Position numbers and translations under genes: made by a program. From a virus, in the IMG/VR virus record IMGVR_UViG_3300035670_001203, positions 1 to 24,425 of that record: a DNA stretch of 24,425 nt; one strand, given 5' to 3'. Numbering within the stretch: position 1 is the stretch's first letter; every line of letters begins with the position of its first letter. This document shows positions 4,108 to 5,004 of this stretch, in pieces. Below the pieces are notes generated by a model. The model was not told the origin of the DNA. It was given only the letters and a program-made list of their open reading frames with translations, and searched no databases.

Positions 4108-4406
4108 TCCTGCATCTCCTTCATGTAAAACTTCATCTCAACAATCCGAGCACACTCGCGCAACTTCCCCACGTTCGTCCGACGCATCACCTCAATCGCT
4201 ATCGCAACAAACGTCTCGACTTCTGCTCGCTCGTCATCACCCCATCCGATCAGCGCCGCCACGCAGGACTTCAGCCGCTCATCTTTTAACTTCTCGATTC
4301 GCTCAGCCAGGTATTCCAAGTCCTCGTGCGGCAGCGCCGCCCTCATCTGGAGCAACTCGGTCATTCTCCGAGCCTGCTCCTCGACAAAGTGCTTGTCTGG
4401 CTTCAT
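4104..4406 (-). CDS. Hypothetical helical phage protein (100 aa)
   Basis: Begins MKPDKHFVEEQARRM. Almost entirely charged amphipathic helix (LEYLAERIEKLKDERLK; ETFVAIAIEVMRRTN), with no signal, membrane segment or catalytic motif. It overlaps its upstream and downstream partners as ATGA. I do not recognise a named family. Confidence 0.65.
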   Translation of the reverse strand: MKPDKHFVEEQARRMTELLQMRAALPHEDLEYLAERIEKLKDERLKSCVAALIGWGDDERAEVETFVAIAIEVMRRTNVGKLRECARIVEMKFYMKEMQE

Positions 4407-4633
4407 AGATACTTAGCGATTTCAGACTCAATCCTGGTGACATCCTCACTCGTGAGTTTCCGTTGCAACCATGGTGCGTTATAGCCCTTCCTGTCCAACA
4501 CCTCGAAATCAATCTCCTCGTACCCGTAATAGTCCCAGTCGCTTGCAGCATCCCTGCTGTACGAACCACGGTTGACGCAAACCCGAGCGACGATGATGCA
4601 AGGGATGCCTTGGATGTGTGATTGGATTTCCAT
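4403..4633 (-). CDS. Hypothetical phage protein, IQGIPC family (76 aa)
   Basis: Starts MEIQSHIQGIPCIIVARVCV. The IQGIPC opening, an acidic strand (EEIDFEVLDRKG) and APWLQRKLT near the C terminus are shared with a small phage family of unknown function. AGGAG lies 6 bases before the ATG. It is the first gene downstream of the hammerhead ribozyme: predicted cleavage would leave a 42-base leader, beginning with a hairpin, in front of this gene. The Shine-Dalgarno also pairs in the outer part of ribozyme stem II, so its translation may respond to cleavage. Confidence 0.75.
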   Translation of the reverse strand: MEIQSHIQGIPCIIVARVCVNRGSYSRDAASDWDYYGYEEIDFEVLDRKGYNAPWLQRKLTSEDVTRIESEIAKYL

Positions 4634-4647
4634 GTTGCTCTCCTGTT

Positions 4648-4697
4648 GGACTCATCAGTACCGGCCTGACCAGCAGACCCCCGCAGGGGTTTCGTCC
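4648..4697 (-). ncRNA. Type II hammerhead self-cleaving ribozyme
   Basis: On the minus strand, 5' to 3': stem II strand GGAC (4697-4694), core GAAA (4693-4690), stem III CCCC/UGCG loop/GGGG (4689-4678) closed by A4690-U4677, cleavage nucleotide C4676 (GUC), stem I UGCUGG (4675-4670), loop UCAGG, CCGGUA (4664-4659), core CUGAUGA (4658-4652), stem II GUCC (4651-4648). Every invariant core base is present and all three helices form, two stem I pairs being G-U. Stem II can continue past an AAA/AAC internal loop with CCU (4703-4701)/AGG (4644-4642), touching the upstream UAA and the downstream Shine-Dalgarno. Cleavage is predicted between 4676 and 4675. Type II forms are known from bacteria and phages. 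Confidence 0.88.
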
Positions 4698-4698
4698 T

Positions 4699-5004
4699 TT
4701 AGGCTGCTAGTAACTGTGTAAAAACACCAAGTCCGTGGTTCTTACCTCCACACTGGCACTCGCAAACACCGTCATGCTTACCGTTAAGGCATTTAGCGTT
4801 GCACTTATGCAGGCTAGGAAACTTTTTGTACTCAATCTTGCGCTCAACCGGAAGAACTCGACCGTCAGCAGTCTTGCCAGCCAATCTTTGAAAGCTGTCG
4901 TACCGATTAGCCGAAGACTTAACGCCGCCAAGAGCAACAAATTCAGCATTCATTACCGGATGGACGCTTACAAGCTGCTCATCACCGTTGAAGTATTTGA
5001 TCAT
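4699..5004 (-). CDS. Hypothetical phage protein with Cys-rich CGGKNHG motif (101 aa)
   Basis: Starts MIKYFNGDEQLVSVHPVMNA. The C-terminal part has C68-x3-C72 and C81-x-C83-x-C85 followed by GGKNHG, a recurring Cys/His signature in phage proteins of unknown function that probably binds zinc. AGGAG is 6 bases before the ATG. The stop codon lies 1 base before the hammerhead core, so ribosomes finishing here would cover the 5' strand of ribozyme stem II. After cleavage this mRNA would end in the stem III hairpin. Confidence 0.75.
   Translation of the reverse strand: MIKYFNGDEQLVSVHPVMNAEFVALGGVKSSANRYDSFQRLAGKTADGRVLPVERKIEYKKFPSLHKCNAKCLNGKHDGVCECQCGGKNHGLGVFTQLLAA

Follow-up and report, generated by a model that had tools for sequence, protein, structure and literature searches.

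Why phages carry hammerhead ribozymes has been described as an open question (PMC6155905). A short intergenic RNA in the window, i.e. the whole stretch of 24,425 nucleotides of viral DNA analysed here, raises it for one particular junction: what would such a ribozyme do between two small phage genes? Read directly, the minus strand at 4697-4648 gives GGAC GAAA CCCCUGCGGGGG UC/UGCUGGUCAGGCCGGUA CUGAUGA GUCC, and at the level of its letters this segment is confirmed as a complete type II hammerhead ribozyme. The invariant core of the hammerhead (CUGANGA, GAAA and NUH at a three-stem junction) is fully present, loops close stems I and III, and stem II is left open, which corresponds to the type II permutation. 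The cleavage site is predicted between 4676 and 4675. An earlier sequence-only reading had proposed the intact core with three stems, this cut site and the two flanking genes; the first agrees with the sequence and the covariance model described below, the second follows from the layout of core and stems, and both genes are open frames as claimed. The parts of the locus are listed in the order of transcription.

4699-5004, minus strand: upstream gene, an open frame of 101 amino acids with no family match, stop codon UAA at 4701-4699
4698, minus strand: A just outside stem II, likely in tertiary contact with U4669 (A in 97% of 550 relatives)
4694-4697, minus strand: stem II, 5' strand GGAC (sequence and own covariance model)
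4690-4693, minus strand: core GAAA, i.e. G12, A13, A14 and A15.1 (sequence and own covariance model)
4678-4689, minus strand: stem III hairpin CCCC-UGCG-GGGG with a UNCG-type tetraloop (sequence, relatives compared)
4676-4677, minus strand: U16.1 (U4677) and C17 (C4676) of GUC (established hammerhead numbering and own covariance model)
4659-4675, minus strand: stem I hairpin of 6 bp with the loop UCAGG at 4669-4665 (sequence and own covariance model)
4652-4658, minus strand: core CUGAUGA, C3 to A9 (sequence and own covariance model)
4648-4651, minus strand: stem II, 3' strand GUCC (sequence and own covariance model)
4640-4644, minus strand: Shine-Dalgarno sequence AGGAG of the downstream gene, expected to be retained on the 3' product (sequence)
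4403-4633, minus strand: downstream gene, an open frame of 76 amino acids, Pfam PF20788 (YuA phage Gp49), start at 4633

The judgement that such an arrangement is very unlikely to arise by chance was borne out. Chance can be excluded, because none of 400 first-order Markov-resampled copies of the window, searched on both strands with dinucleotide frequencies kept, held a match with stems of at least 4, 4 and 6 bp; with the minimum lowered to 3 bp per stem, only 4 copies gave any match. Furthermore, our own covariance model, built from 28 phage relatives with the window left out, scored the ribozyme with 61 bits (E 8.6e-15) as the sole match in 141 kb, which included 13 loci encoding relatives of the two flanking genes. 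The Rfam search of the window gave no match at the gathering threshold. At a loose threshold the family RF02276 (Hammerhead_II) matched end to end, with a score of 24.1 bits that stayed below the gathering score of 37 (E 1.5e-4 for the whole record). This family shares the permutation with open stem II, the core bases, the cut site as well as the bacterial and phage context with the window ribozyme; however, its model fits a short stem II, whereas the group of the window has a stem II of 4 bp. Of about 85 relatives defined by descriptor in 18 loci, just 3 passed the gathering score. A search of named phages for the window region returned no match.

By pattern scans, hammerheads of the same design were identified in considerably more than 100 viral contigs, and a single phage can carry up to a dozen of them. 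The pattern GGACGAAAC...GTC...CTGATGAGTCC, in which only stem II and the core are fixed, had at least 119 matches in viral contigs, and the CTGACGA and GGTC/GACC forms gave at least 120 viral matches each. Since bacterial and archaeal genomes totalling 257 billion bases contained the first GGAC pattern in just 19 stretches, the design appears to be mainly viral, although the viral base count is not stated and no exact ratio can be given. In five phage contigs (L112, L109, L120, L021 and L017), hammerheads occupy consecutive gene junctions, with 4 to 12 of them per contig. The type II pattern also occurs in an archaeal genome, the Halorarius litoreus chromosome (L247, 4260-4307), and in a named phage, Xanthomonas phage Xp15, between the annotated genes gp02 and gp01 (L094, 396-456).

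Compensatory changes in related phages, which had been named as a way to check the ribozyme, were found in stems I and III. Among the matches listed for the two GGAC patterns, in which only core and stem II are fixed, 267 distinct sites were compared: stem I (5 bp) pairs in 96% and stem III (4 bp) in 94% of them, despite 141 different 5' strands of stem I. When partner halves were swapped between the same sites, pairing fell to 5% for stem I and 10% for stem III. The swap test is unbiased, whereas pairing counts on the alignment of relatives are partly due to selection.

Two bases outside the classical core are conserved as well. Among the matches listed, an A directly 5' of stem II is present in 534 of 550 distinct copies (97%), and loop I starts with U in 500 of the 510 copies with stem I hairpins of 17-18 nt (98%). 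The A is a structural base, because it is kept in 90 of 94 copies in which the stop codon is distant. The window has both bases, and A4698 and U4669 likely form the A-U contact between loop I and the stem II side that is known from other hammerheads. A different contact belongs to the published type II consensus, namely a pseudoknot between loop I and the 3' tail (PMC3088659). In contrast, it was not enriched among 361 relatives of the window, and the window loop UCAGG is not complementary to the tail AACAGGAG. An alternative in which AGUC pairs with a GACU of the tail was also rejected, because stem II variants show no matching change. The same applies to the outer extension of stem II (CCU/AGG) that the sequence-only reading had included: it is absent from the two closest relatives, L027 and L135, and the family shows no enrichment of pairing between 5' flank and 3' tail.

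In L027, which is syntenic, the ribozyme precedes the same downstream gene (57% amino acid identity) behind a different upstream gene. In L135, ribozyme and ribosome-binding site are 91% identical to those of the window and lie between genes unrelated to it, hence the ribozyme module seems to move or recombine. The stem III tetraloops of window, L027 and L135 (UGCG, GAAA and UUCG) are interchangeable. The mobility of the module might point to a mobile or circular RNA element of the retrozyme kind. However, with a single copy in the record no unit-length RNA could be excised, tandem ribozymes bounding a repeat unit were sought there and only one copy was found, and Perreault et al., who looked for circular products from bacterial arrays, saw none (PMC3088659); we regard this explanation as the least credible of all.

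Orthologues of the upstream gene mostly lack a ribozyme behind them, so it is not essential at this position. In two of them (L003, L004) and in a more distant relative (L012) a plain G+C hairpin is found instead between stop codon and Shine-Dalgarno sequence. The window ribozyme and these hairpins would be compatible with a common role for structure at the ends of messages. It could also be argued that the window element is itself non-catalytic, i.e. a terminator or plain G+C hairpin, since relatives carry hairpins of the GGGGC-UUCG-GCCCC type at this place and the next Rfam match in the window is Mu-gpT-DE RNA (RF03012). This match reached only 15.6 bits against a cut-off of 49, though, a search for an intrinsic terminator at the ribozyme found neither a terminator-like site nor the T run that should follow the G+C hairpin, and a plain hairpin would have no use for the core bases, which makes this a very improbable reading. 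An exchange of hairpin and ribozyme in front of a downstream gene shared by L004 and L119 was discarded, because the proteins are unrelated and only the ribosome-binding sites are alike. A nearly identical ribosome-binding sequence, CAACAGGAGAGCAA, precedes both flanking genes of the window (5019-5002 and 4648-4631, minus strand); it recurs 3' of the L027 and L135 ribozymes and, without a ribozyme, in L115.

The position between genes is conserved as well. Among the matches listed, both flanking frames are co-directional in 305 of 376 copies, the upstream stop codon ends between -3 and +1 of stem II in 311 of 519 (60%) and past stem II in only 29, and the median distance from stem II to the start codon is 22 nt. 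In the window, the stop codon ends 1 nt 5' of stem II (offset -1), and the start codon lies 14 nt 3' of stem II. Many relatives have offsets of 0 and +1, so that the stop codon's own A fills the conserved position. Copies within one phage have a median spacing of 644 nt, which is gene-sized; hence, multiple copies tend to separate single genes. Most of the 20 downstream genes sampled are of unknown function. The genes upstream in the window phage include those for an O-like initiation protein and a P-like helicase loader, which makes an early region plausible for the ribozyme.

Collectively, the sequence, the covariation among relatives and the conserved intergenic position support the earlier proposal that the mRNA is split between the two genes, and the element is very probably a cis-acting type II hammerhead that would cut the co-directional phage transcript into single-gene messages. 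Once transcribed and free of ribosomes, the RNA would fold via stems I, II and III, held by the A4698-U4669 contact, and cleave itself after C4676. The stem III hairpin would then close the upstream message about 25 nt past the stop codon, with a 2',3'-cyclic phosphate at the end. The downstream message would carry a 5'-hydroxyl, open with the stem I hairpin and retain its own Shine-Dalgarno sequence and start codon. Because the stop codon stays on the upstream piece and Shine-Dalgarno sequence and start codon on the downstream piece, complete messages are expected from each cut. The outcome would be single-gene messages made without a host nuclease, with a hairpin capping both ends of each. 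Protection of both products by these hairpins would follow from the anatomy of the ribozyme; we infer cleavage in the cell and a benefit from it, such as stability and expression independent of the neighbouring gene.

The tight spacing between stop codon and stem II can also be explained in another way, in which the terminating ribosome would mask stem II and GAAA and delay cleavage until translation of the upstream gene ends or stalls, and the ribozyme would act as a regulator rather than a constitutive processor. This translation-gated switch is compatible with the stop codon distribution in the family, including the offsets at which it supplies the conserved A, and with the offset in the window. 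However, two other reasons explain the same placement. A ribozyme inside a frame would yield stop-less messages, and having to leave the stop codon 5' of the cut may be a sufficient reason; the dense arrangement of phage genes is another. Gating is considered unlikely, though not negligibly so. The link between translation and cleavage had been drawn via the CCU/AGG outer stem, where it is not supported; it might be possible via the stop codon that abuts stem II.

A further element is found in about one fifth of the group, where RUCAG, directly or closely 3' of stem II, is complementary to the core CUGAY. In distinct sites with RUCAG directly after stem II, the pairs between N7 and R were U-A in 50, U-G in 2, C-G in 11 and C-A in 0 cases (Fisher p ~1e-10, uncorrected for relatedness); the corresponding counts in the GGTC set were 15, 2, 4 and 0 among the matches listed. 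Four loci hold both kinds of N7-R pair, all of them matched. Carriers of RUCAG include L109, L120, L073 and L133. This covariation supports a hairpin that would exclude the active core, perhaps serving product release or shut-off. The claim is limited to the RUCAG subset, because the pairing energy of 3' tails with the core, compared with swapped tails over all tails, showed no significant excess. The window tail AACAG lacks RUCAG and hence this hairpin. Pairing of GUCAG from window loop I with the core in the 3' product is absent in L027 and L135 and is probably due to chance. It is conceivable, at rather long odds, that the group represents translation-aware cutters, in which a ribosome at the stop codon holds the ribozyme open and the cut occurs upon its release; in the one fifth of relatives mentioned, the CUGAY/RUCAG hairpin would then take the core and make the cut one-way or free the products.

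Returning to single-gene processing, the main caution about activity of the window ribozyme comes from predicted folding. The isolated 62 nt fold into the hammerhead shape with a stability not unusual compared to shuffles (z -0.9), but in a context of 220 nt other folds are preferred, and the native stems do not belong to the predicted minimum (about 0.1-0.15 for stems I and III, 0.0 for stem II). The energy models used take neither hammerhead tertiary contacts nor ribosomes translating the upstream gene into account. The 3' cleavage product is predicted to refold in such models. Exposure of the Shine-Dalgarno sequence by cleavage was rejected as an effect, since the predicted values of 0.50 before and 0.53 after the cut do not clearly differ. 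The predicted misfolding might indicate a relic that cleaves very slowly or not at all and survives as a pair of hairpins, and 4 of the 18 consensus hammerheads assayed in the published work did not cleave (PMC3088659). Against this, the core bases of the window are all intact, and L027 and L135 likewise have an intact core, with changes in stem III loops and stem I bases; a relic is hence improbable.

Clustered prophage hammerheads and their proposed role in mRNA processing have been published by Perreault et al. (2011; PMC3088659). In that work, 14 of 18 consensus hammerheads were active in vitro, and tandem bacterial copies cleaved in vitro, one of the sets in E. coli as well. In these prophage clusters, single genes of differing identity are bordered by multiple copies, and processing of long phage RNAs into gene-length mRNAs was proposed as it is here. 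In the haloviruses HF1/HF2 of the same paper, a mapped mRNA 5' end lies no more than 3 nt from the hammerhead cut site, which fits cleavage. That hammerhead is found 13 nt upstream of an early phage gene start, compared to 14 nt in the window; unlike the window ribozyme, it has core insertions near C3 and an extreme halophile as host. A hammerhead-based leader raised transcript levels about twofold in E. coli (PMC6206723). This RiboJ insulator resembles the present proposal in leaving a 5'-trimmed message headed by a hairpin with increased expression, but it is an engineered derivative of a plant satellite RNA and sits behind a promoter, whereas the window ribozyme lies between genes.

In this regard, the window ribozyme is a further copy of a known kind of hammerhead, in a large phage group mostly missed by public RNA libraries. 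What appears to be new at the family level is the placement at the stop codon together with the covarying core-borrowing hairpin, the latter absent from the window. The sections of PMC3088659 consulted do not describe the placement, and neither feature was found in the literature searched, which leaves most subscription journals outside. The family provides a set of 550 distinct copies, among the matches listed, which mostly fall under the Rfam cut-off in the loci tested and have a fixed geometry between stop and start codons; hence, the mRNA-processing idea becomes directly testable. Finally, the core-borrowing hairpin, if working as a switch, would represent a natural off or release device within a ribozyme.
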